Assembly: GCF_011388215.1 (NCBI RefSeq)
Contig: NZ_CP049989.1
Coordinates: forward strand, 1,178,001-1,242,000
Direction of reading: 5' to 3'
Source of the DNA: Hydrogenophaga crocea
Lineage (GTDB): Bacteria; Pseudomonadota; Gammaproteobacteria; Burkholderiales; Burkholderiaceae_C
Length of the DNA stretch: 64,000 nucleotides
How positions within the stretch are numbered: position 1 is the stretch's first letter; each line of letters begins with the position of its first letter. This document shows, one piece after another, positions 11,940 to 30,587 of the stretch. A model generated the notes under the pieces. The model did not search any database and was not told the DNA's origin. It was given only the letters and a program-made list of their open reading frames with translations. A program made the translations under genes and the position numbers.

Positions 11940-12025
11940 GTTCGGAGTCTCCAGGGGGTGGATGGGATGCGGCTCACTGTAGGTTCGGGCAGCGGGGCTT
12001 GGCGATCCTGAATAACCCTATGCGC

Positions 12026-12037: not shown

Positions 12038-12056
12038 TTGTTCAGCTTTGAACGTT

Positions 12057-12548: not shown

Positions 12549-12605
12549 GACACGCACTTTAGTGCATGTTTCTGCGGCGCATCATGGGGTAAACCCGCGG
12601 AGGGC

Positions 12606-12745: not shown

Positions 12746-12789
12746 CGCAGTATGAAATTCAGTGCGATCGCATCGAATAGGGGCCTTTC

Positions 12790-13938: not shown

Positions 13939-14039
13939 CTAGATGCGCGCCTTGCGGAGACTGAAACTCATTGAAGGGCGCCGTCCAAATAGAATGAATG
14001 ACCTCAGTGCGACAGTGGACCTCAACCTCGAAAGATCTC

Positions 14040-14195
14040 ATGTCTGCGGCGGACTACCTCAAGCTCTTCATGCTCTTTGGCATCGCGATCGGCATCGTGC
14101 TGAATCGGCGTTTGGCGCGATCGAGCGTCGCGCTTCGAATCGCGAACAAGCACTACGTTGACCAAACTGATCGCATGTTTGGTCTGAATGACTGA
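14040..14195 (+). CDS. Possible small membrane protein
   Basis: 51 aa from the ATG at 14040 (MSAADYLKLF). One hydrophobic segment (about residues 6-20) is followed by a basic stretch (NRRLARS) and a polar tail. The Shine-Dalgarno is weak and no family is recognised. It sits 100 bp after the integrase. The composition is plausible for a single-pass protein, but it could be chance. Confidence 0.35.
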   Translation: MSAADYLKLFMLFGIAIGIVLNRRLARSSVALRIANKHYVDQTDRMFGLND

Positions 14196-14306
14196 GCGGT
14201 GCCGAGCGCACGAAAGGCGTGCTCCTCGTATTGCCGTGAGGATTTCCACGCGATTTCGCGGTGCGCTTCCCATCCGCATGAAATTGACCCTGGCAAGGAG
14301 GCGGGT

Positions 14307-14636
14307 TTAGGTGAAGGACCATTGAGGCAGAGGCTCCCCACGGCTCAAGGCGAGCATCGAGCGCGAAGCCAGCTTCATGAACTTGAGCGTTTCCCACATC
14401 GTTCTGGGCTTGGCCGTATCCCGCAGGCCAAGATCGTCCACCATGCGCTCCAGTTCCGGGTCCAGGTGCGCGGCGTATCTCCACTCCGGCACAAACATCT
14501 GCGGTTCGAGCTGGCGCAGTCGCATTTTCAGTAGGTCGCGGCCGAAGGCCGACCTGAGGAGCCAGTGCGGCTCCGGGGTGTAGTGCTGGCGGAAACAAAC
14601 CGTAGTCGTCAGGTCGAGGTCGGTCTTGTGTGGCAT
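14307..14636 (-). CDS. Hypothetical protein
   Basis: 109 aa from the ATG at 14636, with a good ribosome site (AAGGA about 7 nt ahead). The protein is soluble, rich in Leu, Arg and Met, with no signal or membrane segment. It lies downstream of the ParM/ParR operon in the same direction but after a terminator, so it is probably separate. Function unknown; codon use resembles real coding sequence. Confidence 0.6.
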   Translation of the reverse strand: MPHKTDLDLTTTVCFRQHYTPEPHWLLRSAFGRDLLKMRLRQLEPQMFVPEWRYAAHLDPELERMVDDLGLRDTAKPRTMWETLKFMKLASRSMLALSRGEPLPQWSFT

Positions 14637-14709
14637 TGCTGTTCCTTGGTTCAGGGGGTGGATACCAAAGTCGCACGCAAGCGGATTTAGTCAAGAGACA
14701 CTCGGACCA

Positions 14710-14741
14710 AAAATCAGAAGGGCCAGCAAAGCCAGCCCTTC
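14710..14741 (-). terminator. Terminator after the parMR-like operon
   Basis: On the minus strand a 7-bp stem (GAAGGGC with GCCCTTC) with an 11-nt loop is followed by TGATTTTT. It lies 39 bp after the ParR-like stop. Confidence 0.6.
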
Positions 14742-14779
14742 ACGGAGATACAGCCCACCGGGCTACGCCCCCCAGTTGC

Positions 14780-15148
14780 CTAAGAGCGGAGCCTGGCGAG
14801 CGCAGGGCCAAACAAAGACGCCATGAGTTCCGTATCGACAGCCGCAGCCGGCGCTGGCTCAGCGATAACCTCGCGGCGCCGCTTTGGGAATTTGTGAGGT
14901 TTCATAGCATCCGTTGACATGACGGGTTCCGACGTGCCCATGCTCGAGTCCGGAATAAGCCCGACCTGGAGCATTCGTTCCAACTTGACCCCTAACAGCA
15001 TCAGATCGCGAGCTACCTTCACGCGTCGGCGCACAGGCACCGCCAGAAGATGCTCGTATAGGCCAGAGTGATCCGGCTGAAGGGAGAGCCGAAGCCTAAG
15101 ACCGGCCTCCTCGTCCTCCCCAGCCATCGAAACGCCCTGATCAGTCAT
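14780..15148 (-). CDS. Small ParR-like partner of the ParM homologue
   Basis: 122 aa from the ATG at 15148, which overlaps the ParM-like stop (ATGA, 15145-15148). It has a basic N-terminal half (VRRRVKVARDLMLLGVKLERML) that could form a ribbon-helix-helix-like DNA-binding unit, and a low-complexity C-terminal tail rich in Pro and Ala. No family signature is certain. Position and coupling match ParR/StbB adaptor proteins, which bind parC repeats and cap the ParM filament; that role is inferred. Confidence 0.65.
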   Translation of the reverse strand: MTDQGVSMAGEDEEAGLRLRLSLQPDHSGLYEHLLAVPVRRRVKVARDLMLLGVKLERMLQVGLIPDSSMGTSEPVMSTDAMKPHKFPKRRREVIAEPAPAAAVDTELMASLFGPALARLRS

Positions 15149-16251
15149 TTCGTCATGCCCTGGACGCTCACGAACTCGGACGCCAGCTGAAAGCCGCGCA
15201 CGTTCGAGAAAGCCGACCCGGGGTCGCACTTGAGGCGGCGCTTGAGCTCCGGCGCTACTTCGCAGAGGAAGTCATAGAAGACCGAACCACCGCCTCCGCA
15301 CACCAGGATCGTGTCGAAGTCGGACAGATCTCCCACATCGCTGAGCATCGCGTCGTAGCCCCTGCGCAGAACTTCGTCGACAGTGCCCTTGTAGTCGGCC
15401 ATCTCCAGGTCCACGCCAGCGATGCGAACCGTTGCGCTGCGCGTTCGGATCGCGGCATCGATTGCCTCGATCACCGTGAAATTGTTCTGGTACGAGGGGT
15501 TGATCTGCTGGGCAACCGCGTATGCGCACTGAAGCATCGACTCAGGGTGTGCGCCAGACCGAGTGTGGTTCGGCTCGCGCTCAAGCGAGACGAGGTAGTC
15601 GATAGTGCCGCCGCCTACGTCGACTACCAGGCTCCAGCCGCGCAGCCCGGCCCCCTTGTTTGCCATGCCGTAATTCATCAGTGCCCCCAGGGGCTGCACC
15701 ATCACGTCCGCGTCGAGCACGCGCACGGTGCGCACACCCAGCGGGTCTTCAGGGCCGCCAAGAACGTGGGTGCCGATAGCCGACTGGCGCAGCTTCTCCT
15801 TGTATTCGTAGTGGGTGTTGAGCGGCAGGCCCAGCCCAAGATGCTCGATCACCAGCTCCCGAGGGTTGCCAACGTCTTCCAGCATGTAGTGCATGGCACC
15901 GTGCATGAGGGCCATGTATGCGGGCGTCATGCAGTAATTGGGAAGGACGTGGCGTGGCTGCGAGCCCTTCAGGTGCATCGGAACGCCGCGACCGGCAAAG
16001 TGCAGCACGCCGTCGATCTCAGTCAGGCACCCATCCGAGGCGCGAGTACCGGCCTTGCGCTCAAAAGGTCGCCCCTTGGGTAGCACAGCCGTGATCGAGG
16101 GGAACAGGTCAGCCACGATCACGGTCTCGCCGTTCACCTTCTTGCGGCCAACGGTGAACTTGGTGTTTGCGTAACCGACGTCAATGGCGCGACTTGAGAC
16201 TGTCACGGTGTTGTGGGACTGCGCGAGGGCAGCGGGAAGATCGCGTTTCAT
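15145..16251 (-). CDS. ParM/StbA-like actin-fold ATPase (plasmid segregation)
   Basis: 368 aa from the ATG at 16251. Actin-fold nucleotide motifs are present: phosphate-1 AIDVGYANTK (D24), phosphate-2 VVDVGGGTIDY (D211) and an adenosine loop LVCGGGGS (319-322). In type II partition systems such an ATPase polymerises and pushes sister plasmids apart. The adjacent ParR-like gene and the repeat array just upstream complete a par locus. Finding it between two recombinases suggests an integrated plasmid or an integrative element with a replicating circular stage. Confidence 0.88.
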   Translation of the reverse strand: MKRDLPAALAQSHNTVTVSSRAIDVGYANTKFTVGRKKVNGETVIVADLFPSITAVLPKGRPFERKAGTRASDGCLTEIDGVLHFAGRGVPMHLKGSQPRHVLPNYCMTPAYMALMHGAMHYMLEDVGNPRELVIEHLGLGLPLNTHYEYKEKLRQSAIGTHVLGGPEDPLGVRTVRVLDADVMVQPLGALMNYGMANKGAGLRGWSLVVDVGGGTIDYLVSLEREPNHTRSGAHPESMLQCAYAVAQQINPSYQNNFTVIEAIDAAIRTRSATVRIAGVDLEMADYKGTVDEVLRRGYDAMLSDVGDLSDFDTILVCGGGGSVFYDFLCEVAPELKRRLKCDPGSAFSNVRGFQLASEFVSVQGMTK

Positions 16252-16352
16252 ATGGGACTCTCTGCGTTGAGGATGCGCACGGGATGTGCTGGCGCCGATT
16301 CTTTAGCCCCGCTCACATTCCTTCAACCGACCTGGCTCTCCACTTCCAGAAC

Positions 16353-16583
16353 GGGCCAAAAATGGTCCCTAGCGTCGTCATGCGCTGCTCAACTAAGCAG
16401 CAAGTGGGCAAAAAATGGTCCCTGGCGCGCGAGGCGTGCGAACGAGCAACGCTTCAGTGGGCTAAAAATGGTCCCTAGAACCTCCGCACGCTGCGTGAAA
16501 AAGCGGCAGATGGGCCAAATTTGGTCTCAAGCACTTCGCGCATTGCGCGAAGCGGCACCAGATGGGCGAAAAATGGTCCCTGG
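16353..16583. repeat. Five 20-bp direct repeats at 52-53 bp period (parC/iteron-like array)
   Basis: Copies lie at 16353-16372, 16406-16425, 16459-16478, 16512-16531 and 16564-16583, with consensus GGGCnAAAAATGGTCCCTrG. The fourth copy is the most diverged. The period equals about five helical turns, so all copies face one side of the DNA. The array is 102 bp upstream of the ParM-like start, where a ParMRC centromere and operator would be. Iterons for replication are an alternative, but no rep gene is seen. Confidence 0.85.
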
Positions 16584-16599
16584 GGCTTTGAATCGGGCC

Positions 16600-17880
16600 G
16601 CGGCAGCGAACTGCGCGCACGTGCAGCCCGCAAAAGCAGCACTCGAGGCATCGACGGATGAGAGGCCCAAGTGCCTTGTCTCCGGACCGACCTGCGGCAG
16701 AACCGGCCAGCAGACCAGGCTCGCGGCACAGTGCAAACGGGAGCGGCATTGCTCTCACCGAAACTCGGGCGCGAGCAATATCCACAGGGGCAAAGCCGCA
16801 CGCGTTTCGTGTTCCGCGTAGTCCATGGGTAGAGCCTGAGTGATATACAAGGCTAGCTGTGACAAGCAAAAAACAGCAGAAGCAAACACCTGAGATGGGC
16901 TTTGAAAATCTTTTCTAGTCTGTGGACAACCAACCCAGCGGGTCAAAGCGCAAAGCAGTTGTCAACATGGTGAGCCAGGTCGAGTGACAACCGACAAACG
17001 ACCTCCGAGAATGCGCGTACTGCACTTGATGTGCTCTGGCATCCGGTAACCCGGTGATGCCCTGCCCCCAGAGGGCGTAACGCAGAACGGCGCTCCATGT
17101 GAGAGTCGCAAAGCAACAAGCCGGCTTCCCAAAGTGGACGTCGTAGCCAAGTCGGCTCTCTTTGTGAGGGTCGCACTAACAGGTCGGAGATAGACCTAGC
17201 AGCTGAGCCCGCGATGCGGCTCGGAAGCGGTAGCCCTCGCACGAGGAGTTGCCCGCAGCAAGCTCAAACCGGCTCCCTCTGGGGGCCACCAGCCAATGCT
17301 CCTCCTCAGCTACGGAGCACGTGTGGTCGCGTAAGCGAAAAAGCGAACCTACGTTTCTCGTTCTCCTTGATGCGGCCCTTGTGTGGTGCGCCATCACGAA
17401 TTCCCTCCCACCCGGCGCCTGAGCCGGGAGCCCCAGCGGCATGAAATAGGAAAGGGTGGACACAACGGAGAAGGAGACGCCGCATAGAAGTCATGCGGAG
17501 AAGTAGGTGAACTTGGGCGGTGACGAACTGCCTCGGCCTGGCCACCCACCCCATTTGGCTCTGTCTGAGACCCAGACAGTAACCCCCCCGGCGATCGATT
17601 GCGTCTCCGGGGTGCCCATCCCTCAAGGATGGGGGTCACACAGTTTCCCGCTGTGCCGACAGGAAAGCTTGCTAACGAACCGGGATATGAAGACTTGATG
17701 GCCGCGCGCAGGGCCTTGTACTGGGCGAGAGGTAGCTGAGAGGGTGCTGGCGTGAGCTGGCGAGATAGCACTGGGAATTGGCTGAGACCGCTATCCGGTG
17801 TGGGTGCGCGAGACGCCCGCAGGGGATAGGGGCTTTAGTGGCGATCCCTGGAAGAGAAAGCCGCATCCGAGAGGAGTTCT
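16600..17880. other. 1.3-kb non-coding region with possible origin elements
   Basis: No convincing reading frame is seen on either strand; open stretches are short and have no coding character. It holds two sequences one base from a DnaA box (ATATCCACA at 16778-16786 and TGTGGACAA at 16921-16929), a locally AT-rich stretch near 16900-16918, and many GC-rich dyads including three tandem stem-loops at 17586-17655. An origin of replication or transfer, or a structured RNA, would fit; none is proven. Confidence 0.4.
17586..17655. other. Three consecutive stem-loops upstream of recombinase 2
   Basis: Hairpin 1 pairs CCCCGG (17586-17591) with CCGGGG (17607-17612). Hairpin 2 pairs CCCATCC (17615-17621) with GGATGGG (17627-17633) over a 5-nt loop. 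Hairpin 3 pairs CACAG (17639-17643) with CTGTG (17651-17655). They are 225-295 bp ahead of the second recombinase and could be a leader RNA or a recombination or transfer site. Confidence 0.4.
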
Positions 17881-19317
17881 ATGGACAGGCAGATTGGAGT
17901 TGGTCAGGTGAAGACAGCGGGCAACGCGATGGCGCGGGGGCCATTGCCAAAGCGCGGTCCGCGCAAGTCGGTGATCGGGAGCGGGCGTGCGGCCTTGGCT
18001 GAGGCGATCCGCCGGCATCCTAACGATCCGGGCCGCCAGATGGCGGCGTTCCTTGAGGAAGCGCCCTTGCCGTCATTGATCGGCCGCGCCAGGGAGGTTT
18101 CGGCCAAGACGCGAACGAACCATGGAGACATGCTGCGGGGTGCAATCGCCGACCTGAAGGCCATCAACATGAGAGTGCAAAGGCTGGATCAACTGAACAG
18201 GCGTCAAGTCGTGGCCCTTGCGGCGTACTGGACCAACGAGCGAGGGCAGACGGCGGGGACGGTGGCGAACAAGCTGAGTGCGCTGCGGAAGTTTTTCACG
18301 CTGGTGGGTCGCCAGGATGTGGTTCCGAAGCGCGACGCGCTTTACGAGGCGCTGGCTGCATCGGGTGTCACGCAGCAGATGGTGACGCGCCAGCAGGTTG
18401 CGCTGGACAGCAAGGCGTGGACGCCCAAGGGGGTGTTGCCGCGCGAGGTGATCGAGGAGGTCCGCGAGACCCATCCGCATGAGGCACTGCTATTGGAATT
18501 GATGCTTGCGTGGGGTCTGCGGGTGTCAGAGGCACTGGGCCTTCGTCCGCACGCGTCGGACACCCCGGACGGTCTGCTGGTTCACCGCGAGACAAAGGGT
18601 GGGCGCTGGCGCAAGGTGCCCTATCTGAAGGATGAGCAGAAGGCGGCGTACCAGCGTGACGTACTGGATAGGTGCCGCCAGTGGGCCGAAAAATCACGAG
18701 GCCTGGAGATGGGGTATCCGAAGATGACTCTCAAGCAGGCGAGAAGTCGGCTGTACAACGTGATGGCGGACTTGGGCGTGACGCTGGAAAGGCGTGGGGT
18801 GGTCTGCCACGGACTGCGGCATGAATTCGCAGGGGACATGTTCTTCGACCTGACGGGGCACCGCCCGCCGAGCGAGAACGGCGCAGTCGCGGACTGGTAC
18901 AAGAAGAACAAGATGCAGGTAAATGCTGCCTACCAGCAGGTGTCGGAGGCGCTGGGCCACTGGCGGCGCGACATTTCCTCTGCCTACCTGGGTTCGCCGG
19001 CCAAGATGAGCACGACGCAGCGCGCACGGGTTGAGCAGTGGGTGGAGCAGATCGAGGGCAAGCCCGAGTTGTTGCTGAGGCTGCTGAACGGGGGTGCCGA
19101 GCAGATCTGGATCACGGGAGCTGCTGCGCAAGGGCTGCCCCTGCGCAACGGGGAGACGATGCAGTTGGCCGTGCGCCTGCGGTGTGGGTGGACGGCTGCG
19201 GATCTCAATCGCGTTGATGATGTCGTGCGAGCGATGGCTACCGTACCGATCCAATTGATTCCGTGTCTCGGTCAGCAGCCGCAAGGGGAGGCCGTCGAGG
19301 TGTTTCTGCGGAGGTGA
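17881..19317 (+). CDS. Second tyrosine recombinase
   Basis: 478 aa from the ATG at 17881, preceded by a good GAGAGGAG ribosome site. Catalytic residues: Arg in AWGLRVSEA (R214), Lys in ETKGGRW (239), H310-x-x-R313 in HGLRH, His in LGHWRRD (360) and the nucleophile Tyr in SSAYLG (369). A roughly 38-residue insertion lies between HGLRH and the LGH motif, and a 100-residue C-terminal extension follows the Tyr. It may resolve multimers or act as a second integrase for the element carrying the partition genes. It is only distantly like the integrase at 12790. Confidence 0.9.
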   Translation: MDRQIGVGQVKTAGNAMARGPLPKRGPRKSVIGSGRAALAEAIRRHPNDPGRQMAAFLEEAPLPSLIGRAREVSAKTRTNHGDMLRGAIADLKAINMRVQRLDQLNRRQVVALAAYWTNERGQTAGTVANKLSALRKFFTLVGRQDVVPKRDALYEALAASGVTQQMVTRQQVALDSKAWTPKGVLPREVIEEVRETHPHEALLLELMLAWGLRVSEALGLRPHASDTPDGLLVHRETKGGRWRKVPYLKDEQKAAYQRDVLDRCRQWAEKSRGLEMGYPKMTLKQARSRLYNVMADLGVTLERRGVVCHGLRHEFAGDMFFDLTGHRPPSENGAVADWYKKNKMQVNAAYQQVSEALGHWRRDISSAYLGSPAKMSTTQRARVEQWVEQIEGKPELLLRLLNGGAEQIWITGAAAQGLPLRNGETMQLAVRLRCGWTAADLNRVDDVVRAMATVPIQLIPCLGQQPQGEAVEVFLRR

Positions 19318-19533
19318 ACTGGAGTAAATCGGTTCGCAGTCGACGAGTAGACGCGCACGTCAATCGCCTTGGTGAGTGCCCCGTTCGCCAGAGGCCCGCA
19401 TCCGTACGTGAAGACCGCGAGCAATCCCTGGAATCTTTGGTGATTATCCCCGTGTGAAAGAGGTGAACGCGGTGCCCTTGACGACGTGGGGTTCTCCGGT
19501 ACGTTGGTCACAAGACCATTCACGTACCTCCCC

Positions 19534-21531
19534 ATGTTCAAAGAGTTCATCTACGCGATCGAATACCAGGCGTCGCTGCGCACGGCCCAGCTGACCGCCA
19601 TTCTTCAATTCTTCTGGCTGCTGAAGATGCTGGTTTCCATCGTCTTCGAAGGAGGCCCCCAGCTCGATCACCGCGCGGTCAACGGAGAGTTCATGATTCC
19701 GATGCTCATCGTGATCATCGGCACCATTGCATTGTTCTGGCGTGTGCTGGGTCGTTGGGTGCTGGGCAGTTGGAGCAACAACGAGTCGTTCTGGATGGAG
19801 CACAGCGCCTTCAGGCACGCCCTCTGGGGCGCGGGCGTGATGGCAATCCTCTGGCTTGTCTACGAACGCTTCGACGCGACCATGATGTACCTGACTGGGT
19901 ATGTGCTGTACCTCACGATTCTCACCTTGCTCGCGCGAGCCGGGCCGCTGACCAACGGCATATGTCGCCAAGCCCGAACTCGTGCCGGTGCACGGGCGCA
20001 GCGGCGTGAGGACGGTCCGCCGAGCGTGGCCAGAGCGGTCATGCCGAAAATCAGCTTCAAGGACATTCATGGCAACGCTGACACGAAGGCTCGGCTGAAG
20101 GAGGCCGCGCAAGCGGTGATTGCAAAGCGGGGAGGGGCGCGCACCGAGCGAAACGGCATCCTGTTGTCCGGCAAACCTGGCAACGGCAAAACCATGTTCG
20201 TGGAAGCGCTGGCCGGCGAGCTCAAGCTGCCCCTGCTGCAACTGACCTACGGCGATGTGGCAAGCCCCTGGGTGGGCGAGAAGACTGCCCGCATCAACGC
20301 GGCCTTCGCCCAGGCGCGCCGTCAACAGCCATGCGTGCTTTTCATCGACGAGGCAGACAGCTTCCTGAGTTCGCGCGACGGTGAGGCTGGCAACGGCGTC
20401 AAGGAAGACCGCGACGTGGTCAACGCGCTGCTCACCCTGATGGTGGACATTCGCAAGGAGCGGGTCATCCTGGTGGCCGCCACCAATCACATGGATCGCC
20501 TTGATGCGGCTGGCGTCCGCGAAGGCCGGTTCGACTTCAAGGTGGAGATCACGCCGCCCGATGCCGAGGCGCGGGTAGGTCTGCTCAAGCTCGGCCTCGA
20601 AACCCATCTGCCGAAAGCCAGCGTGGATCCGGTGGTGATCGAATCGGTTGCCCGCCGTTGGAACGGCTATTCGGCCAAGCGCATCCTGGCCGTCACCGAG
20701 GAGCTCGGACCTTACCTGCATCGCGCGGGCCGGGTGACACCTGGCTACGAAGACTTCATGGGCGCACTCCGCGCGCTGCAAGGTCGAAAGGGCGTATTGC
20801 TGGAGAACGTCAAGACACTTGACGAGCTGGTACTGTCACCCGTCACCCGTGAATCGCTCGGTCTCATCGCCGGCCGTATGGCCGATCCGCAGCACACCGA
20901 GGCCCACGGCGGCACCCTGCCAGCCGGTGTGCTCTTCTATGGTCCGCCGGGAACCGGCAAGACGGCCACGGCCAAAGCCCTGGCCAAATCGATCGACTGG
21001 GCGTTCCTCACGGCCACGGGAGCTGACCTGGCGCGCACTCCCGCGGAGCTGCAAAAACTCCACGACCAGGCGAACGAACTGCGCCCCTGTGTCATCTTCG
21101 TGGACGAGGCCGACGAGTTGCTCAGGAGCCGTGACCTTTCGCCCCACACCGAGGGGACCAACAAGCTGCTCACCCTCATGGACGGGGTAGGGGACCGCGT
21201 GAAAGACGTCGTGTGGATCGCCGCGACGAACAACCCTGAGCAGATCGACCCGGCGCTGCTGCGTGGTGGACGGTTCACGGAGAAGGTGCCGTTTGACCGA
21301 CCGAGCGCGAAGAGCCTGAGCCTCTACCTGGAAACCTGGTTCGCGAGCCGCAAGGTCCGCCTCGCAGGCGGCCTCACGGTCGCAGCGGTGGCCCAAACGC
21401 TGAAGGGCGAGAGCATCGCAAACGCGGAGGCGGTTGCGCAGGGAGCGCTCAACAGAGCGATTTCACGGCGAAGCACACCGCTGGTGGTCACTTCAGCCGA
21501 CATCGAACATGCGGTAGTGACGGTGCTTTGA
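19534..21531 (+). CDS. Membrane-anchored tandem AAA ATPase (Cdc48/FtsH-like motor)
   Basis: 665 aa from the ATG at 19534; an in-frame GTG at 19486 is the alternative. Three or four hydrophobic segments (about 22-37, 53-70, 96-111, 117-136) are followed by two complete AAA modules. Module 1: Walker A GKPGNGKT (213-220), Walker B VLFIDEAD, sensor ATN, GRFD arginine region. Module 2: Walker A GPPGTGKT (470-477), Walker B VIFVDEAD, sensor ATN, RGGRF. No protease (HExxH) or nuclease domain is present. The family remodels or extracts proteins. Partner and role in the island are unknown; transport, membrane stress or defence are all possible. Confidence 0.88.
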   Translation: MFKEFIYAIEYQASLRTAQLTAILQFFWLLKMLVSIVFEGGPQLDHRAVNGEFMIPMLIVIIGTIALFWRVLGRWVLGSWSNNESFWMEHSAFRHALWGAGVMAILWLVYERFDATMMYLTGYVLYLTILTLLARAGPLTNGICRQARTRAGARAQRREDGPPSVARAVMPKISFKDIHGNADTKARLKEAAQAVIAKRGGARTERNGILLSGKPGNGKTMFVEALAGELKLPLLQLTYGDVASPWVGEKTARINAAFAQARRQQPCVLFIDEADSFLSSRDGEAGNGVKEDRDVVNALLTLMVDIRKERVILVAATNHMDRLDAAGVREGRFDFKVEITPPDAEARVGLLKLGLETHLPKASVDPVVIESVARRWNGYSAKRILAVTEELGPYLHRAGRVTPGYEDFMGALRALQGRKGVLLENVKTLDELVLSPVTRESLGLIAGRMADPQHTEAHGGTLPAGVLFYGPPGTGKTATAKALAKSIDWAFLTATGADLARTPAELQKLHDQANELRPCVIFVDEADELLRSRDLSPHTEGTNKLLTLMDGVGDRVKDVVWIAATNNPEQIDPALLRGGRFTEKVPFDRPSAKSLSLYLETWFASRKVRLAGGLTVAAVAQTLKGESIANAEAVAQGALNRAISRRSTPLVVTSADIEHAVVTVL

Positions 21532-21978
21532 ATCACATGCCAACAGGAGGTCCGCTGACTTCACGATCGGCGCACTGGTGACCTTGCTTTCAAGAGCTGG
21601 CGAAAAGTTCACGTGTGCGTTCATTGTGAAGCACCGTGCCTAGCTCAGCATTTACTGGGCCAATCGAGTTCGCCGCATTGCTTTTGGACGCTCGGCAGCA
21701 AGCGGCCCGCCAGCGCGTGTCCGCGGCCTCCAATTGCGGTGAGGGCTTTGCAGCGGAAGCAGTAGTTAGCCAGGGGCACGCGAGCTCACGCATTCTGAGC
21801 CGAAGCGGACGCTGGAGGCGCCCCCGCTATCCAGAACATCCGCCCCGGGTCCACGTGGCCAGACGCGATGGCGACGAATGCGGTACTTCCTGAGACAGTG
21901 GAGCGGGCACCAGAAGGCAGTTTGCCCCGCGCCTGCGTGGCCCCGGCAAAGCACCAGCGCGACGACCCCTGCAGAACG
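21532..21978. other. Intergenic region before the XRE-ImmA gene
   Basis: About 450 bp with no convincing gene. The longest open stretches (67-85 codons) have no ribosome site and no family resemblance. The region may hold the end of the AAA transcript and decayed sequence; only the promoter at its right end is recognisable. Confidence 0.4.
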
Positions 21979-22009
21979 TATACTCCTGGACTTAACTTCA
22001 CTTAAGTCC
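21979..22009 (+). promoter_or_regulatory. -10 box and operator palindrome of the XRE-ImmA/PIN operon
   Basis: TATACT (21979-21984) is a near-consensus -10 box. It is followed by a perfect inverted repeat with 8-bp arms GGACTTAA (21988-21995) and TTAAGTCC (22002-22009) separated by 6 nt, ending one base before the TTG start. The repeat covers the expected transcription start, ideal for autorepression by the XRE domain. No clear -35 box is seen. Confidence 0.6.
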
Positions 22010-22010
22010 C

Positions 22011-23150
22011 TTGTCCGACCACCTCAACGTCGATGCACTGCGTCGCGCCCTGCAACTGAAGGGCATGCAGCAGAACGAGTTGGCAGCGAAGCTCGAGGTC
22101 ACGGACGCGGCGGTGAGTCAGTGGCTTTCCGGAACGACGGAGCCCAAGCCGGCGACCTTGCTGAAAATGGCTCGCGCCGTTGGGCTAACCGTCGCCGAAC
22201 TTCTCGTCACGGAGGAGCCGGCCCCTCTGGTGGCATATCGACGCAAGGGCCAGCAGAAGACGACCGAGTTCAACGAAGACGAAGCGCTCGACCAAGCGTA
22301 CGCGCTCGACGCTCTGGTGGATCTGCTCCCGCCTCGCACGTTCCGACCTCCAAGCGTCGCTAACGCGAGCCCCACGTACCGCTGTGCTGAATTGGCCGCA
22401 GCCGAGCAGAGGTCGCGGCTGGACACTGAACCCGGCCAGCCGGTGAGCTGGCGCTCGTTGATGAAGTGGTTCACCGACTGGCAGTCGGTCGTTGTCCCGG
22501 TGTTCTGGGGAGAGCGCGAGAACCACGGCAATGCCCTGCACATCCACCTGCCGCGGACGAATCACACCTTCGTCTTCATCAATCTCGACAGTGAACGGCT
22601 GGACTTCAAGTTCTGGCTGGCGCACGAGATGGCCCATGTCCTGACGCCAGACTTGGTGGGCTCGGAGGACGGTGAGGACTTTGCGGATCTGTTCGCCGGG
22701 GCACTGCTGTTCCCACGCGATGTCGCTGCCGAGGCCTACCGGGAAGCGGTGGGAGCCAATAGCGCTGCGATCGCGCTGAACACCATGGCTGACTGGGCGC
22801 GGAAGTGGGAGGTATCGCTCTTCACGGTGTACTCGCAGTGCAACCGTCTCGCGGAAGATCGGAAGGTGCCCCCGCTAAAGATCGACTCCACAGCCGTCCA
22901 CGCCGCGCGGCGGCGCCTCGACAAGACTCTTCCCAAGGTTCGGGACGAACTCTTCGAGGGCCAGACACCGAACGTGCACCAGTACATCGACGTCGCGGCC
23001 CGGCAGTTCGGAGGCGAGTTCTTCAATGCCCTGGCACAGTACGTCAGGACGAGAGAGGGCGGCCCTACCTACATCCGCCGGTGCATGCATGCGACCTTGC
23101 GTGACTCGCTAGCGCTGTACAGCGCCCTGACGAAGGGGGCCGAGCATTGA
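22011..23150 (+). CDS. XRE-family HTH protein with ImmA/IrrE metallopeptidase domain
   Basis: 379 aa starting at TTG 22011, chosen because the complete HTH begins at once (LRRALQLKGMQQNELAAKLE, residues about 10-65). The ImmA/IrrE domain has the zinc motif H205-E-M-A-H209 in LAHEMAHV. Such proteins act as regulators that cleave or hold a partner repressor, and many serve as antitoxin-like controllers. The stop overlaps the start of the PIN gene, so both products are made together. Confidence 0.9.
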   Translation: MSDHLNVDALRRALQLKGMQQNELAAKLEVTDAAVSQWLSGTTEPKPATLLKMARAVGLTVAELLVTEEPAPLVAYRRKGQQKTTEFNEDEALDQAYALDALVDLLPPRTFRPPSVANASPTYRCAELAAAEQRSRLDTEPGQPVSWRSLMKWFTDWQSVVVPVFWGERENHGNALHIHLPRTNHTFVFINLDSERLDFKFWLAHEMAHVLTPDLVGSEDGEDFADLFAGALLFPRDVAAEAYREAVGANSAAIALNTMADWARKWEVSLFTVYSQCNRLAEDRKVPPLKIDSTAVHAARRRLDKTLPKVRDELFEGQTPNVHQYIDVAARQFGGEFFNALAQYVRTREGGPTYIRRCMHATLRDSLALYSALTKGAEH

Positions 23151-23746
23151 ACGTCGCCCTCGTCGATACCTCCGCCTACCTCAACCTCGCACGATGCCTG
23201 CACCCGATGTTCGGACGGACCTTCGGCCCGCCGCCGTGGACGGCCCAGGGCGCCGCCGAGCTTCAGCGGGAGTTCGAGGACAAGCCGTCGCTCGGGGTGA
23301 CGTACTACTGGTTCAGCGAGCCGTCCTACGCGGATAACCGGAGCGCGAACGTCTTTGACTGGAAGTCGGTGAACCTGATGGAGGTCAGGGCCTCGACGGA
23401 CGGCATCCTTCAGTACTGCCGGGCGAACTCCAAGAAGTTTCGCGATGCGCAGTGTTCGGTACCGTCTCCCGCCGACTGCCTTCTGGCGGGCTACGCCGCA
23501 GCACTTGTCGAGGCTGGCAGGAAGGCAGCAGTTGTGACCGACGACAAAGGACTTCACCTAGCTATACGGATGCTGGCCACGAGCGAGGTGATGCATGGGT
23601 ACGAGATGCTCGCCCATTTCGTCTCGGCTGGGCATGTAACGCGCGACGCGGCGAAGGCTCTTTACCAAGAGCTGGCCTACCTTTCGAACGTGCCGACGGC
23701 GTGGCGCCTGGCCTGTAAGTCGACATTCGGCTTCCCCTGCCCGTGA
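23147..23746 (+). CDS. PIN-like nuclease domain protein (putative toxin)
   Basis: 199 aa starting at TTG 23147, which overlaps the upstream stop (TTGA, 23147-23150). Acidic residues sit where a PIN fold needs them: D7 in VALVDTSAY, D110 in PSPADCLLAG, and D132/D133 in VVTDDKG. PIN proteins cut RNA. XRE-ImmA plus PIN-like (DUF4411-like) gene pairs are known as toxin-antitoxin-like modules; the assignment here rests on motif pattern and coupling. It converges on the helicase gene. Confidence 0.75.
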   Translation: MNVALVDTSAYLNLARCLHPMFGRTFGPPPWTAQGAAELQREFEDKPSLGVTYYWFSEPSYADNRSANVFDWKSVNLMEVRASTDGILQYCRANSKKFRDAQCSVPSPADCLLAGYAAALVEAGRKAAVVTDDKGLHLAIRMLATSEVMHGYEMLAHFVSAGHVTRDAAKALYQELAYLSNVPTAWRLACKSTFGFPCP

Positions 23747-23847
23747 CCTAGGACCCGGGTCGGTCACGAGATTCGCAACAGGCCGGCGGCTGGAAGCGAC
23801 GCGAGTCGCTACCCCAATCTCTGTCGATCCGACACGCCGTCTCGCGG

Positions 23848-25446
23848 TCAGAGAGTGGTAGGTGAGGGCACTGCCAGCGCGCGAGCGTAAAGCTGGCAGC
23901 GCCGCGTCCTGGTTGTGCCGGTCGCGTCGATGTAGGGCAGGTCGACCGAGCCAGCAGGCGAGCAGTAGCCATCTGGGAAGAGCTGCAGGTGCGCTGCGCC
24001 GCGGGCGATAGTGTCGTCCGCGGGCAGATGAGACAGCAATGACTTGCTGATGAGCATGACGAACTTCATGCGCGCACGCGTGAGCGTCACGTTGAAACGC
24101 CGCGGATCGAGGATGAACTCCTCCTCGGACGCAATGAAGTCCGGGTCCGAAACCGTGTAGCTGGCGACGATGAGGTCGCGCTCCTGGCCTTGGAACCGGT
24201 CGACGGTGTCAATAAAGGACGAGTCGAGCACGGCCACGTCCAGCGTCGACCCAAGAAGGTTGCGAATCGTCGCGATCTGCGCCCGGTGCGGTGTGACCAA
24301 ACCGACCCGCTCTTGCCAGAAGTCTTGTGGCACGCTGCCCCCATTTACGGCACTCAGCATCGCGCTGTATTCATGTACCAAGGCCGCGGCAACCTGCGCC
24401 TCGAATAGGTTGGACACGGTGCTCGTGTTGTCGTCGTAGCAGACCACTAGGACAGGCTTTTCAGGGTCGAGCAACTCTTGCCAGTGCGGCGACCAAGGCG
24501 GCATCGCAGGCCACGACTCGGGCTGGCTTGCAGGCAAGGGTTTGACGTCCAAGCGGCGCATCTTGTGATGCGACTCATAGTCGTCCTCGTAAAATCGGCG
24601 CGACGGCCAGCCGGAGATCGCCTCGTTCGACCGGTAGTTCTTCGCCAGGTTGACAGGCTTGATCTGATGGGCGAGCCGGTAGTAAGAAAAAATGCAGTCG
24701 AGCAGACCCGAACGCGAGTCCTCGACCTTGTACTGGTAGACCGGGCCGAGTTGCCGATCGTCGCCGCAGACGACGACGTGTGCGTCGGGCCTGAGCAAGC
24801 ACATGTAGGCCAACGCAGCGGCCGACGCCACCTGGGACGCCTCGTCGATGATCAGCAGGTCGAACCAAGGCGCTCCGATCTGCGAAGCAGGGGTGTCCTT
24901 ACCGGTCGTGAGCTTCAGGAGCTGTTGGTGGGTTCCTCCCACCACCAAGAGGTCGTCCGCGGCGGCAAGGAGTCCTGGAAGCCAACCGCGTTCCTTCCAT
25001 CGATCGATGTCCTCGACCCCCTCGATGTCCCGCGGTTCGCTGGAACTGGATCGAATGCGGAGGACTCTGGCATGCATCGCTCCATTGGCGCAGCGACGCG
25101 TCTCGAGCAGCTCGGCGCATGTTCTGAGGACGTTGTCGATCGCGTTGTAGTTAGAAGCGCCGATGCCGATTCGCAGACCTGTTCCGCGTGCGATCGCATC
25201 CTCCAGCCATGACAGCGCGAGAACGCCGAGGGTTGCCGTCTTGCCGGTGCCGGGCGGCCCCCAGAGCATGGACAGTCGATCGCTGAACGAGTGGGCAATG
25301 GCGTCGGCTTGCCGCTCGTTCGGCGGGTCGGGTGCGTAGGCCTTCACCTTCGCCAGCGCGTCGGCGGCATCGCGCCGCTGGGGTGCGGCTAACTTGGTGG
25401 GCGCGTAGAAGAAGGTGTACGCGGGTTCCAACTGCTTCGTGCTCAT
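23848..25446 (-). CDS. SF1 superfamily helicase, Dna2/Upf1-like
   Basis: 532 aa from the ATG at 25446. Ordered helicase motifs: Q motif NERQADAI (43-50), I GPPGTGKT (63-70), II IIDEASQ (D201, E202), III VVCGDDRQLGP, IV KNYRSNEAI, V DTVDRFQGQERD, VI RRFNVTLTRARMK. Motif V/VI wording is typical of SF1B Dna2/Upf1 enzymes, which move 5' to 3'. The protein is compact, with no nuclease domain. The start overlaps the nuclease stop (ATGA, 25443-25446), so the two are probably subunits of one machine. Confidence 0.92.
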   Translation of the reverse strand: MSTKQLEPAYTFFYAPTKLAAPQRRDAADALAKVKAYAPDPPNERQADAIAHSFSDRLSMLWGPPGTGKTATLGVLALSWLEDAIARGTGLRIGIGASNYNAIDNVLRTCAELLETRRCANGAMHARVLRIRSSSSEPRDIEGVEDIDRWKERGWLPGLLAAADDLLVVGGTHQQLLKLTTGKDTPASQIGAPWFDLLIIDEASQVASAAALAYMCLLRPDAHVVVCGDDRQLGPVYQYKVEDSRSGLLDCIFSYYRLAHQIKPVNLAKNYRSNEAISGWPSRRFYEDDYESHHKMRRLDVKPLPASQPESWPAMPPWSPHWQELLDPEKPVLVVCYDDNTSTVSNLFEAQVAAALVHEYSAMLSAVNGGSVPQDFWQERVGLVTPHRAQIATIRNLLGSTLDVAVLDSSFIDTVDRFQGQERDLIVASYTVSDPDFIASEEEFILDPRRFNVTLTRARMKFVMLISKSLLSHLPADDTIARGAAHLQLFPDGYCSPAGSVDLPYIDATGTTRTRRCQLYARALAVPSPTTL

Positions 25447-28097
25447 TGGCGCACCTTCGCTGGCTTCTTGCCTCCCACGCGCCGAACGGCTCGCTCCAGC
25501 AACTCGGTACTGAAATCCTTAGCAACCGGATCGAGGACGCAGGCGTGATCGAGCGATCGGAGACCGGCGTCCCTAAGCAGCTTTTCCTTCGTCGGGTCGA
25601 ACAGGAGGACCAGAAGGGGCGGCGTGTGCAAGGTGTCGAGCCGCGCGACGGTGACTTCCAATAGGTTGCGGAGCGGCGCGTACTGAAGCCGTTCAGGGAC
25701 TGAGATTCCTGCCGAAAGCGCCTCTCCGAGGTTCTTGTGCCCCGCGGCGTGGTACCACTTCGCGTCGATCGAGCCCTCCATGGTCTCGTTTCGCAGGATG
25801 ACGGTGAAGTCGCCTTCGCGGATCCGCGTATCCCGTGAGTCGTCCGAGAATGTGAACGGCAGGGCCTGCTTGGTCCCCTTTCTCAGCTCCGGCGCGTACC
25901 GCGGGTCTGCTGACACAGCAGCCATGACCTCCTCAATGCAGGGTACGCCGTCGGCGACCGTGATGCCGCGAATCGAGTGGAAGTTCGCTTCGCGCTCCTC
26001 GATCGGGAGCGCAAGAACGTGCATGTTCTCCAGATCGTCCGCGATCGCATTGAGCTGCGAGAACACGATCATCTGCGCCGAAGCAGTCGGCAGGTTGAAC
26101 TCTTTGGGTGGCTTGAGGCTGAAGGGTTCCTTTCGCAGAAGCAACTGCTTCCGATAGTCCTTCTGCAGGCCAACAACGACGTCGTGGACCGCACTGAGGT
26201 GCATGCTGGTCACTTTGCGGAGAAGATCACTCAGCTCGCCGCGACTGAACGGCTCTCCCTTGTTGAACCCGTCGACCAGACTGTTTTTGCGCAGCAGGAT
26301 CTTGTCCTGCCACAACTCGTAGGCGCGCTCGAAGGGGATCTGGTCGCTCAGTTCCGTGCGGAAACCATACGGTGGGCGCACCATGATGTGCTTGCCTTCT
26401 TCGTTGATGAACGGCGCGAGCCAGTGCTTCGCGTCCCATAGCGTGTATCCAAAGCGAACGGGCAGGCCGACAAGACTCTGCACGATCCTCTTGACGATCG
26501 TGACGGGCTGCGTCCTGAAGTCCTCAGGTGCGGCCAGATCTCCTTCGAGAGGGAACACGCGGATCAGGAAGACAGCGATCTCCGCGACGGCCTCGTCTTC
26601 GATGTGCCTAGCTAGAATCCTTGCTACGTGGCGCGCTTCGAGTTGGTCCCAGACGTAGAACTGGACCGTATGTTTCTGGAAGTCCTCGTCGAACAGCTTG
26701 TTCGTGTTGTCCAGTTCCGTCAGCCAGGACTGCAGGCGCCTGCAAAGCTCGATGAGGCGCAGCCTCTCGCTTCTGGAACTCATGCCGTCGCCGGCCGAGT
26801 CGATCAGAAGCGTCAAGTCCTCGACCTCCGGCTTCGCTCCCTTGGTCCTGAAGTACACCTTGCGCAGACCGAGCGCGAACGTGATGCCGGTTCCGGGATC
26901 GAAATGCGCTGTCAGGAAGATGCTCATGTGCGCGAAGGAGGGCATAGCCGCCGCCTTGCGTCCTGCCACAGGAATCGCCTTGCAGGTGGCGACGGCCTCT
27001 GCACGCGCCACGAAGGCCCGCTCAAGCGACTTCAGCCGCTGACTCTGGCTCTTCGCGGCTTGCCACTTCGGCCCATTCGCACGGAGCTCGGTGGATAGCT
27101 CGCTGAACTTTGCGATGCCCGCTTCCCGCAGCACCTGGGCTTGGCCGGCAGTCAGGTCCGGCATCTGCGACAGGTGGTCCACGTCAGGCCGGACTGCCTC
27201 CTCTCGGCAGTGGTGGAGGAAGTCGCACAGCTGGCAATTGCCAGAGACGTGCCAAGGGGCCTCCAACGGCTTGTAAGCGAGAACACGTGGCAGACGTTCC
27301 TCGAGGAACTGCCGGAGGCGAGGGCGATACACCTCGTAGGGTACCGCCTTCGTCGTTTCGAGTAAGGCTTTCGCGACGGGGTCTGCGAGTCCGCTCGCCT
27401 TGTGCCGCTGGACCAGCTCCTTGAAGGCTCCGGCCGTGTGGGTCCCCGGCCAGACGCGGCCTTCCGCGGACACGCCGTACTGATCGTCCAGCCCTTGCTC
27501 CTCCAGCCAGGTCTGAAGGCCGAAGGCGTAAAAAGTAACCTCGACAAAGTGCCGAAGCGCCGGCTCTGCGGCTAGCTTGACGTCGATGACATGCAGGACA
27601 GTTCTTGGCTTCTTGGTCGGATTGATGAGTGGCACCTGGGCGTCATAGGGACGCACCCACAGCAGGTCCGGCCTAGCGCTGGCCTCCTCTAATTTGCGCG
27701 AGTCGACCGCAGCTTTCAGCGACGGACTTAGTGAGCCCGGCACCTGGAATTCGGCCTCGACGATGAACTCTGGCGGAGCCGACTTCTTCAGCAGAGCGTC
27801 AAGCGCCTTGATCGGCTGGAAGGTGGCGATCCGGAGTTCTTCGTCGACGTCTCTGCTCTTGGAGGCCGCCACTCGACCTTTCGCGACTTCGCAGATGTCG
27901 TCGAAGCACTGAGCCTCCCAGACGCGGCCTTGAGCGGTAACCAGTTGGATGCCGGGGCGACTACCCCGCTCCTCATTGGCGTTTGGAACCGCGGGCCTTC
28001 CCCTTTGCTCCGCCTTCGTGGCCAGCCGATATCGGAGGAATCGGTCGCAGTCGAACTTGAACGTGAGCGCGACCACGCTCTTGTTGAGTATTCCCAT
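25443..28097 (-). CDS. Large RecB/Cas4-like iron-sulfur PD-(D/E)XK nuclease with RNase H-like middle domain
   Basis: 884 aa from the ATG at 28097, which has GGGAG about 8 nt ahead. The N-terminal 300 residues match the Fe-S (iron-staple) nucleases of Dna2, AddB and Cas4: C17 in FDCDRF, Glu near 114-116, D144 in ARPDLLWV, D172-x-K174 in VIDVKL, and a C-x2-C-x5-C cluster at C288, C291 and C297. Residues about 390-520 resemble the RNase_H_2 domain of TM0106-type RecB nucleases (LTAHFDPGTGITFALG; QFYVWDQLEARHVARIL), but the DxE pair is not conserved. The C-terminal 350 residues are unrecognised. It is coupled to the helicase and overlaps the methylase end. Confidence 0.8.
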   Translation of the reverse strand: MGILNKSVVALTFKFDCDRFLRYRLATKAEQRGRPAVPNANEERGSRPGIQLVTAQGRVWEAQCFDDICEVAKGRVAASKSRDVDEELRIATFQPIKALDALLKKSAPPEFIVEAEFQVPGSLSPSLKAAVDSRKLEEASARPDLLWVRPYDAQVPLINPTKKPRTVLHVIDVKLAAEPALRHFVEVTFYAFGLQTWLEEQGLDDQYGVSAEGRVWPGTHTAGAFKELVQRHKASGLADPVAKALLETTKAVPYEVYRPRLRQFLEERLPRVLAYKPLEAPWHVSGNCQLCDFLHHCREEAVRPDVDHLSQMPDLTAGQAQVLREAGIAKFSELSTELRANGPKWQAAKSQSQRLKSLERAFVARAEAVATCKAIPVAGRKAAAMPSFAHMSIFLTAHFDPGTGITFALGLRKVYFRTKGAKPEVEDLTLLIDSAGDGMSSRSERLRLIELCRRLQSWLTELDNTNKLFDEDFQKHTVQFYVWDQLEARHVARILARHIEDEAVAEIAVFLIRVFPLEGDLAAPEDFRTQPVTIVKRIVQSLVGLPVRFGYTLWDAKHWLAPFINEEGKHIMVRPPYGFRTELSDQIPFERAYELWQDKILLRKNSLVDGFNKGEPFSRGELSDLLRKVTSMHLSAVHDVVVGLQKDYRKQLLLRKEPFSLKPPKEFNLPTASAQMIVFSQLNAIADDLENMHVLALPIEEREANFHSIRGITVADGVPCIEEVMAAVSADPRYAPELRKGTKQALPFTFSDDSRDTRIREGDFTVILRNETMEGSIDAKWYHAAGHKNLGEALSAGISVPERLQYAPLRNLLEVTVARLDTLHTPPLLVLLFDPTKEKLLRDAGLRSLDHACVLDPVAKDFSTELLERAVRRVGGKKPAKVRQ

Positions 28098-30210
28098 TCG
28101 GAGGCTCCCATTTCCCTGCCATGTCGAGCGCCTCCGAGAGTTCCATTCTTCTCGAACCTCGGCTGTCGACAAGAGCAGTCGTCGCATTAGCACAGAGCAG
28201 CGCGCGCAAGAAGTTTCGCGCATCAGGAACCCGGAAACCCACTGCCTCGTGCCTACTTAGGTCTTCCCACCATGAAGCCATCGATTCGGTCGCCTGCTCC
28301 ACGGCTCTTGCGCTTACCGCAGTCGACCCTCGGGGCGTCTTGACGGGCTGCAGGACCAAGACCGCGTCCCAGCGGAGCGTACCTTCGTAGCTATGCAGCC
28401 CGCCTTGTCCTTCACCGCGCATCGGAAACGTTCTCACGACTGTGAATCCGGAGGCAATGATGGCCTGGGTAAGCAGCAGCCAAGCCTCTGACGAGGTGTG
28501 ATGGTAAGTGAACACCAATCGGCCGTCGATCTTCAGCACCCGGTGCACCTCGCGGAGGATCCGGGTCAGTTGATCAGCAAACTTGCATCGCGACACCTCG
28601 TCGCCGCTCACTACGGCGAGCGACTCCCTCATCGGAGCGCTGCGCGAAGCTCTCCTATATCCGGCCGGCGCAGAGCCCAGGTATTGCGCCCACGCGAGGT
28701 AGAAGTCGGACAGTTCGGAATAGCTGACGTTGTCGAAGTACGGTGGGTCCGTAAGTACCAAGTCGATGGTGTGAGCCTCCACCTCAGACATCGACTCGGA
28801 GGACTTGTTGTAGATGCGGCTTGTGCACCGTCGCTTCGGCTGCAGTGGCTCCGGCTCGCTGAGACCGCCGCGAACGTAGAAGTGAGGCGCGCGGGCGTAG
28901 TCCAACGCTCGCAGCACCTTGGACGCCACGTTTGGAAACGTCCCTCGCCCTTTGCCAGCGAGCCACGGGTTGACCTCGACTGGGCGGACGATGTGCCGAA
29001 AGCCGTGCATGGCAAACATCGCGCTCGTTCGACGGTACCCGGCGGCATAGCTCGTGTACATTGAGTTCGTTGTCAGGTGCTCGCTGAAGGCTAGTTCGAG
29101 CACCTTCTTTAGGTCGGTGTCCTTCTCGGCGGCGATTCGCTTGGCCAGGACGCCGAGATGCAGGCGCTGCCTGTCGTTGAAGAGCTGCCGATAGTTGACG
29201 ATTCCGTTGATCATCGGCCGCGAGTCGCTGCGACCAATGGTGGGAATGAGTCGCTCAGGCCCGACGAGGCCGAATTCACGCTCGAACCGGGCGAGTGCGT
29301 CGGCGGCCAGCTTGAAGCGTGCCCGGTCCTCATCGTCGGCCGCCTTGAATGCTCGGTGGCGGTCGGATCCGGATCCCGCAAAGTACTCCTGTGCGAAGAG
29401 TCGGTAGCGCGGCGCCGCTCGGCCGGAGACCGAGTGTGGCTCGCTGTGGCCGCACTTCGGGCAGACACAGGCGCCGCGCAAGTAGTTACCGTCGTTGATT
29501 CGGGTCTTGACCCCGCACGCGCAGGAGACTACCTGGCGCGACGCCGGAACTTCGTGGACACGATCGCACGAGGAACAGTGAACCCACTGTATTCCGCGCA
29601 CCGCGTCCTTCGCGAGCTGGAAGGTCGGATGCAAATCGAACGAAACGCCGCACGCCGCGCACTGGAACAACTCGACCCAGAAGTGGTACAGGACCGAGCT
29701 CTGTGTGCCATTGACCGTCGTGGTGTGATATGCGGCGAAGAACGCGGATAGGTCCTCCACCAGCTGCTGGTAGGAGTGCCGGGAAGGCTGGAGATTCCTG
29801 GCATTTAGTTCGAAGCTTGTGATCATTGACGCAATTGGGTCGATTTCGTACCCTACGACGTCGGCTCCGACTCGGGCTGCTTCCACTAGCGAGGTGCCCC
29901 CCCCAGTGAACGGATCCAGGATCGTCTTGCCGGAGAGGTCCGGCGCACCTTCAAACAGCGCCCAAAAGTCATCGGTGGAAGCTGTTGCCGGCAGCGCCGC
30001 AGCAGTCAACAGTGCTCGAAACTGCGATCCCAGGCGACGCGCGAACCAGCGGTGGACGCGGTAGATCGGAAGTGAGCTCTGTCCCTCCCGCAGTCCGATC
30101 TTCGCGAGGTCGACGACGGGGATGTCACCTCGATCGAGCAGCAACCGGTGGGCAACTTCGGATTCGGAGTGCGGGGCCGGCTCGATGGGTGTGTCGGTTC
30201 CCTTGTACAT
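27973..30210 (-). CDS. Zinc-ribbon DNA methylase (DUF1156/COG1743-like)
   Basis: 745 aa from the ATG at 30210; a GTG at 30363 would add 51 unlikely residues. The N-terminal LPIYRVHRWFARRLGSQFRA (about 47-66) recalls the HxWWARR region of DUF1156 methylases. SAM motif I is DPFTGGGT (99-106), followed by GYEIDP. CxxC pairs at about 184, 212 and 250 form zinc ribbons. The catalytic motif is LTDPPYFDN (DPPY 488-491), for N6-adenine or N4-cytosine methylation. It would modify self DNA if the block is a defence system. The last 42 codons overlap the nuclease gene. Confidence 0.88.
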   Translation of the reverse strand: MYKGTDTPIEPAPHSESEVAHRLLLDRGDIPVVDLAKIGLREGQSSLPIYRVHRWFARRLGSQFRALLTAAALPATASTDDFWALFEGAPDLSGKTILDPFTGGGTSLVEAARVGADVVGYEIDPIASMITSFELNARNLQPSRHSYQQLVEDLSAFFAAYHTTTVNGTQSSVLYHFWVELFQCAACGVSFDLHPTFQLAKDAVRGIQWVHCSSCDRVHEVPASRQVVSCACGVKTRINDGNYLRGACVCPKCGHSEPHSVSGRAAPRYRLFAQEYFAGSGSDRHRAFKAADDEDRARFKLAADALARFEREFGLVGPERLIPTIGRSDSRPMINGIVNYRQLFNDRQRLHLGVLAKRIAAEKDTDLKKVLELAFSEHLTTNSMYTSYAAGYRRTSAMFAMHGFRHIVRPVEVNPWLAGKGRGTFPNVASKVLRALDYARAPHFYVRGGLSEPEPLQPKRRCTSRIYNKSSESMSEVEAHTIDLVLTDPPYFDNVSYSELSDFYLAWAQYLGSAPAGYRRASRSAPMRESLAVVSGDEVSRCKFADQLTRILREVHRVLKIDGRLVFTYHHTSSEAWLLLTQAIIASGFTVVRTFPMRGEGQGGLHSYEGTLRWDAVLVLQPVKTPRGSTAVSARAVEQATESMASWWEDLSRHEAVGFRVPDARNFLRALLCANATTALVDSRGSRRMELSEALDMAGKWEPPNGNTQQERGRAHVQVRLRPIPPISAGHEGGAKGKARGSKRQ

Positions 30211-30587
30211 GCAAGACGCGCGAGTTTTGTTCCAGTGGGGGCAGTGTACCGATCTCGCGGCGATAACCACGGTGCAGCCCCACGCTCGTACCGCTCCGAC
30301 GCCACGCGACGGCGCCGACGAAAGTCGGTGAACTGGACCGGAGTCGGACCTCAGCGCGGCCACTGGCAGGTTTACTGACTTGCCCGCTTGCGGCCTGCAC
30401 CGCGCGATGAGGTGGCTTGGGGCAAGCGGTTCATGCTGCCGAGGCCTTGAATGCAGGCAGGACTAAACGCCAGTTGTTCGTCGACATCAGCCGTCGGCCG
30501 CGTGCGCAGCGGTCAGTCTTCCGGAGTATCCGCAAGCGGCACGACCGGTCATCCCGCACGCTGGAGCCGAGCGGCCGCATTCAGTCT
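30211..30587. other. Intergenic region at the apparent end of the island
   Basis: 377 bp upstream of the methylase and downstream of the LysE gene. It must hold the promoter of the methylase block, but no clear -10/-35 pair stands out. No tRNA, att copy or transposon end was seen. Confidence 0.4.

Follow-up and report, generated by a model that had tools for sequence, protein, structure and literature searches.

A 64 kb window of the 4.56 Mb single-contig genome of Hydrogenophaga crocea (contig NZ_CP049989.1, positions 1,178,001 to 1,242,000; all window positions below are counted from its first letter) contains a block of three genes, encoding a DNA methyltransferase (MT), a large nuclease (NU) and a helicase (HE). 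The block is probably an ATP-dependent restriction-modification (RM)-like defence system, in which NU and HE would be an effector that combines with different modification enzymes. This reading is based on the conserved gene order, the conserved catalytic residues, the varied methyltransferase (MTase) partners, the defence genes in the neighbourhood and the spread between distant bacteria. Complex formation, methylation, DNA degradation, protection against phages and the sparing of marked DNA are inferred.

Organization of the MT-NU-HE block

The three genes are as follows.
27973 to 30210, reverse strand: MT, DNA methyltransferase of 745 amino acids (aa), match to PF01555 (1.6e-08), start inferred from homologues
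25443 to 28097, reverse strand: NU, Cas4/AddB-like iron-sulfur (Fe-S) nuclease of 884 aa, with a PD-D/ExK Fe-S domain and a DEDD-exonuclease-fold domain
23848 to 25446, reverse strand: HE, 532-aa helicase of superfamily 1 (SF1), UPF1/Dna2 type, joined to NU by an ATGA overlap

A sequence-only reading of this DNA had proposed a same-strand block of three overlapping or ATGA-coupled genes, and the listing of open reading frames (ORFs) confirmed it, at the coordinates where that reading had placed it. The maximal ORF of MT is 27973-30363, and translation probably begins at the ATG at 30210, which agrees with the N-termini of homologues. For NU, the maximal ORF is 25443-28223 (926 aa), and the ATG at 28097, with GGGAG 7 nucleotides (nt) upstream, is the probable start. 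The MT and NU genes share 125 nt, read in different frames, and the junction between NU and HE is an ATGA overlap.

MT has the motif DPFTGGGT and, about 390 residues further on, TDPPYFDN, with eight cysteines in between; DPF-GGGT, DPPYF and the eight cysteines are invariant in 13 of 13 aligned MT rows. MT is predicted to be an amino-methyltransferase of the N6-adenine or N4-cytosine type. It matches the PADLOC model HmaB (1.6e-16), reaches 88.6 bits with NF042963 (DUF1156 anti-phage methylase), below the cut-off of 1000, and has no match to Pfam DUF1156 at E<=0.1. The protein had been described as a zinc-ribbon DUF1156-like methylase: the zinc-ribbon methyltransferase stands, and membership in DUF1156 falls by the curated cut-offs. 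A predicted MT structure was set aside (mean predicted local distance difference test score, pLDDT, of 62).

NU carries the nuclease motif PD...D-x-K (D144, D172 and K174) and the Fe-S cysteines C17, C288, C291 and C297. The three catalytic residues are invariant in all 35 rows of the NU alignment, while C17 is present in 33 rows, C288 in 34, and C291 and C297 in 35. The linkage to a nuclease with conserved catalytic residues, which is generally expected of RM systems, is therefore found here. The PD-D/ExK Fe-S domain covers residues 1 to about 320 and is followed, at residues 388-693, by the DEDD-exonuclease fold, which is without DxE. A second nuclease in this domain was not adopted, as all 35 rows have G or S at the DxE position and D484 varies in five of the 30 rows of lone NU proteins, although D400 and E444 do not vary. 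Database searches with NU gave no Pfam or PADLOC match at E<=0.1, no NCBIfam or PADLOC model above its cut-off, no PDB sequence match at E<=1 and no Foldseek match at E<=0.001. The score against TIGR03491 (TM0106), 31.9 bits over residues 299-424 of the 926-aa ORF, is below the cut-off of 97.45. A VIA-align run on the Foldseek candidates gave clear AddB- and Cas4-like matches for NU domains, which establish the fold and not the function. Together, the conserved D144/D172/K174, the Fe-S cysteines and the AddB/Cas4-like fold bear out the proposed Cas4/AddB/Dna2-type Fe-S nuclease.

HE contains the Pfam domains AAA_11 and AAA_12, and in the PDB a profile of the HE family finds chains of UPF1, DNA2 and SMUBP-2, in agreement with its first assignment as an SF1 helicase. 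Its residues 31-490 align with positions 36-476 of the 2112 positions of the DpdJ profile (PDLC02895) at 7.4e-58. The PLuB helicase-like model NF040671 gave 112.8 bits and its cut-off of 999 is not reached; nothing relevant on PLuB was present among the literature matches listed.

Conservation of the gene order in other genomes

The census of loci used one genome per species, with contigs scanned by two peptide patterns; it was not exhaustive and returned 18 NU loci, the anatomy of which was determined by tblastn and ORF analysis. HE follows NU directly in 16 of 17 testable loci (one locus, L005, is left out because its contig ends after MT-NU), and an MT-family gene precedes NU in 13 of 17 (leaving out L008, which begins at NU). 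An MTase gene of some kind adjoins the NU-HE pair in 16/17 loci, three of the four loci lacking MT having a different MTase. A linked methyltransferase with catalytic motifs, also generally expected of RM systems, is therefore found, with MT itself linked in 13 of 17 loci. The complete order MT-NU-HE on one strand is present in 11 loci (L006, L007, L009, L010, L011, L012, L014, L017, L018, L019 and L020); the contig of L009 ends within HE, and NU is in two fragments in L019 and L020. In L004 the final part of MT is followed by NU and HE, L005 has MT-NU up to the contig end, and L013, L015 and L016 have NU-HE without an MT of the window's type. Because the gene order is conserved in other genomes, a chance origin of the block is ruled out. 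Co-occurrence elsewhere had been named beforehand as the point on which the proposal could fail, and these counts sustain it.

The distances of MT, NU and HE are also correlated (r of 0.95, 0.96 and 0.996 over nine loci, with 5-8 of 5000 permutations reaching the value), in a set of all-three-gene loci that has many near-identical rows and from which L009, L019 and L020 were dropped as truncated or frame-broken. It is very improbable that the methylase and the nuclease-helicase are separate defence units sharing the island by chance or co-transfer. MT and NU-HE do each occur apart, and defence genes cluster anyway, but the overlapping or closely coupled genes, an order and orientation that are the same in 13 loci, the correlated distances and the other adjacent MTase in three of four loci without MT all argue for one unit.

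A homologue search scoring 8000 candidates yielded 67 NU relatives. Among these, 49 have no helicase Pfam domain (some are shorter pieces); the other 18 have lengths of 1302-1487 aa and are fused to SF1 helicase domains. The block had been thought to hold the parts of Dna2, or of fused TM0106-type proteins, as two subunits; the window has indeed two genes, but the split is not the sole form, as fused NU-HE proteins exist too. A pattern matched 48 stretches of viral contigs with no relative among them, and phages gave one weak match. Plasmids contained no near DNA match to the Mangrovibacter NU gene, and E. coli genomes none to the three Mangrovibacter genes.

Exchangeable modification partners

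The comparison of loci supports NU-HE as the putative constant part of the system and the methylase as exchangeable, because the pair also has other MTases as partners, occurs within a dpd cluster and in one case has HerA as a neighbour. The MTase that overlaps the NU ORF in L015 and L016 is a different enzyme, of 309-314 aa, with matches to PADLOC type II models in both loci and to PF01555 in L015. In L013 an MTase with PDLC03316 as best model is convergent with HE at 169 nt. These three enzymes form one BLAST cluster and are thus mutual kin, and MT matches none of them at the thresholds used. Plasmids of Rhizobium and Bradyrhizobium encode a fused NU-HE and a convergent annotated DNA methyltransferase, overlapping by 4 nt, with matches to PADLOC type II MTase models.

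A chemically different partner appears in Skermanella (L023), where a diverged NU lies ahead of a DpdJ of 2113 aa that begins with a relative of HE; dpdA, dpdB and queE are annotated in this cluster, and the NU relative has no PADLOC match. The diverged NU-DpdJ pair is also present on plasmids of Methylobacterium, Caulobacter and Azospirillum (L046, L047 and L048, the last being a sequence that carries no annotation). In all four loci DpdJ belongs to a subtype with a length of about 2100-2200 aa, in which an SF1 helicase is joined to the N-terminal side of the usual DpdJ helicase and whose gene comes after that of the Fe-S nuclease. The nuclease D, D-x-K and the four cysteines are kept in 4/4 of the diverged NU proteins.

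We tentatively suggest that NU-HE is a portable and modification-agnostic effector, plugged into methylation by several MTases, into 7-deazaguanine marking (the Dpd subtype) and possibly into systems with no mark (HerA-linked). In that case the discrimination between marked and unmarked DNA would lie in the loading or licensing of the effector and not in the recognition of one mark. The same diversity bears on a modification-dependent alternative (type IV-like or Pgl-like), in which NU-HE attacks marked DNA and MT marks invader progeny or senses sites. The direction of discrimination is not readable from gene order, related pairs accompany chemically different marking systems, and one locus (L059) has a HerA neighbour and no visible MTase. 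An attack on the mark of its own MTase would, however, presumably be lethal unless separately controlled, and no gene cluster beyond the core genes is common to all loci, so that we consider this alternative improbable.

Defence neighbourhood and genomic island

Each of the ten loci with long flanks (L010-L019) has some scanned neighbours that match defence models. Hachiman HamA/HamB lies directly downstream in L010 (Mangrovibacter); IetA/IetS and a type I methylase are neighbours in L011, and type III RM in L012. Matches to PD-T4-6/Gabija-like models were found near L013, and Zac in L014 together with type I RM, the latter through a similarity cluster shared with L017, which has type I RM and GmrSD neighbours. 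L015 has a phospholipase effector model and PDC-S41 (2/5 neighbours scanned), L016 has SoFic (1/5 neighbours scanned), and L019 a Gabija-like helicase and a methylase. Immediately upstream of MT in L018 (3184-5078), the N-terminus of BrxF is fused to the C-terminus of PglZ and followed by BrxA, apparently the scar of a deleted BREX (bacteriophage exclusion) operon. In a rough control, none of ten genes taken from eight regions of the genome that contains the window matched at E<=1e-10. The restriction-like defence role proposed for the block is in line with these matches near 10/10 long-flank loci, among the neighbours chosen.

In the window, the block is the right edge of a genomic island, bounded by comparison with a genome of the same genus (G048).
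12602 to 30581, no strand: genomic island carrying the block
The flanks of G048 match the window up to 12599 on the left and from 30582 on the right, with about 40 kb between them, of which part was examined. On contig C117 of G048 this inter-flank stretch includes a 97% match to window 12602-14200, the first integrase region, and 47 bases of the junction (12606-12652) have an exact second occurrence on the contig. The site resembles an integration hotspot. NU has no match in G048, and no direct repeat of the left junction of the island was found in the window. NU was detected in 2/197 genomes of relatives and in 2/398 genomes of the phylum, each time the window's own plus one weak or partial match, and the system is rare in both sets. 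MT is 94-96% identical among isolates of Achromobacter, Mangrovibacter and Geomesophilobacter, which we take to belong to different orders or phyla; as far as sequence identity can show it, the block has spread between distant bacteria.

The island carries other genes. A 368-aa protein (15145-16251, reverse strand) is by appearance what we take to be a plasmid ParM/actin-type segregation protein, and this ParM-like gene suggests a plasmid or integrative and conjugative element ancestry. A tandem AAA+ ATPase (19486-21531, forward strand) has two IetA-like stretches (PADLOC IetA 7e-53) and FtsH/Cdc48-type NCBIfam matches; its first 180 residues are presumably membrane-like, and, of the few neighbours scanned, none was recognised as an IetS partner. 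The toxin-like pair of the sequence-only reading, convergent with HE, consists of a helix-turn-helix and M78 peptidase protein (22011-23150, forward strand; RmrA-like, 9.9e-13) and a 199-aa protein (23147-23746, forward strand) with no good family match, the two genes overlapping by 4 nt.

This setting also bears on a non-defensive explanation, that of a mobile DNA-repair or recombination helicase-nuclease (AddAB/Dna2/TM0106-like) that accompanies a methylase for epigenetic or addiction reasons and performs no restriction. The fold of NU is like AddB and Cas4, HE is like DNA2 and UPF1, and the available passages on UvrD-Cas4 fusions discuss an overlap with RecB-type repair, though their authors favour defence (PMC5704561). 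The MTase neighbours, the defence flanks and the sporadic presence (2/197 relatives and 2/398 phylum genomes, the window's own included) make this explanation unlikely.

Comparison with known systems

The resemblance to Dpd is that HE matches the N-terminal part of DpdJ and that, in Skermanella, DpdJ comes after an NU relative whose nuclease and Fe-S residues are intact. In contrast, the block in the window uses a methyltransferase, its helicase stands alone and lacks the second helicase part of DpdJ, and the block contains no dpd genes; 7-deazaguanine insertion genes were not recognised by eye among the ORFs adjoining the block, a genome-wide scan not having been made. TM0106 (TIGR03491) has the weak sequence match to NU (31.9 bits), and 18/67 NU homologues are fused to an SF1 helicase, but NU of the window is far under the 97.45 cut-off, its helicase is separate and its operon includes a methylase. 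Dna2 likewise joins a RecB/Cas4-type Fe-S nuclease and an SF1 helicase, which are on two genes in the window and on a single polypeptide only in the fused relatives.

BREX-related Type-1 systems (DUF499 ATPase, DUF1156 MTase and Swi2/Snf2 helicase-nuclease) and Hma share a distant MT kinship and an RM-like logic, described in the available part of PMC12839542. The helicase of the block is SF1 and not Swi2/Snf2, and the nuclease, of the Cas4/AddB Fe-S type, is a protein of its own; none of the three genes encodes a DUF499 ATPase, no search for one having been made elsewhere in the genome. UvrD-Cas4 fusions are alike in combining a Cas4-like nuclease with an SF1 helicase in association with methylases: according to the available passages they adjoin Mod-Res or Dcm-Vsr genes, and their authors propose parts in several defence systems (PMC5704561). 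Their helicase is UvrD-like (3'-5') whereas HE is UPF1/Dna2-like, and their nuclease is pfam12705, to which NU has no match. The three-gene block is not described in the passages available from PMC12839542, PMC5704561, PMC12458937, PMC5567051 and PMC10853773, and a description in subscription literature is possible.

Proposed mechanism and significance

Several observations weigh against an RM-like defence system. Neighbours in the defence scan were hand-chosen and the PADLOC models are broad, so that the result is not a blind rate; the loci include many close relatives, and their counts are not independent. TM0106/Dna2-like machines may act in repair. The exchanged MTases, by sequence comparison, appear distinct yet not wholly unrelated, since that of L015, like MT, matches PF01555. 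Diverged MT relatives in 4/398 phylum genomes (the window's own not counted) have no NU or HE within 10-19 kb around. In L056 (9124-12373) and L057 (9159-12480) such a relative overlaps by 110 nt a 381-aa gene with no family assigned, and the methylase there may have another partner. L021 is an NU remnant with no HE and no recognised MTase, and in L058 an NU-like gene follows gyrB (PF00204) at a contig end that cuts off its partner. No modification genes are annotated in the examined stretch of the diverged pairs L046 and L047. In L059 (1858-9824), from a genome of the same taxonomic order as the window's, the fused NU-HE adjoins a 380-aa gene without known family and a HerA-type ATPase, possibly a further methylase-free system; a motif scan found no MTase, the scan being weak in that it missed the annotated MTases of L024/L025. 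The equally negative scan of L022 (Methylorubrum extorquens AM1) was too strict, missing the same enzymes; its fused gene (11965-16387) is in two overlapping frames and is probably broken or bears a sequencing error.

As an RM-like defence system, the block might work as follows. MT would mark host sequence by methylation, and NU and HE would be the two subunits of a Dna2/AddB-like machine, which would load on invading DNA that lacks the mark. HE would unwind this DNA by SF1 translocation, and the Fe-S PD-(D/E)xK nuclease of NU would cut the unwound DNA. The methyltransferase of type III RM is the site-finding subunit, and MT may double in this role, as in type III RM and BREX. For BREX, the available part of PMC11842806 reports that DNA binding by the methyltransferase is required for defence and methylation.

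The proposed reading would give a functional context to NU, a large nuclease without a Pfam match at E<=0.1. If the reading is true, a Dna2/AddB-type machine would be the basis of an additional RM-like system, and a common nuclease-helicase pair would connect methylation-based with 7-deazaguanine-based defence. It would also open the direct question of how a single degrading engine respects different self-marks.

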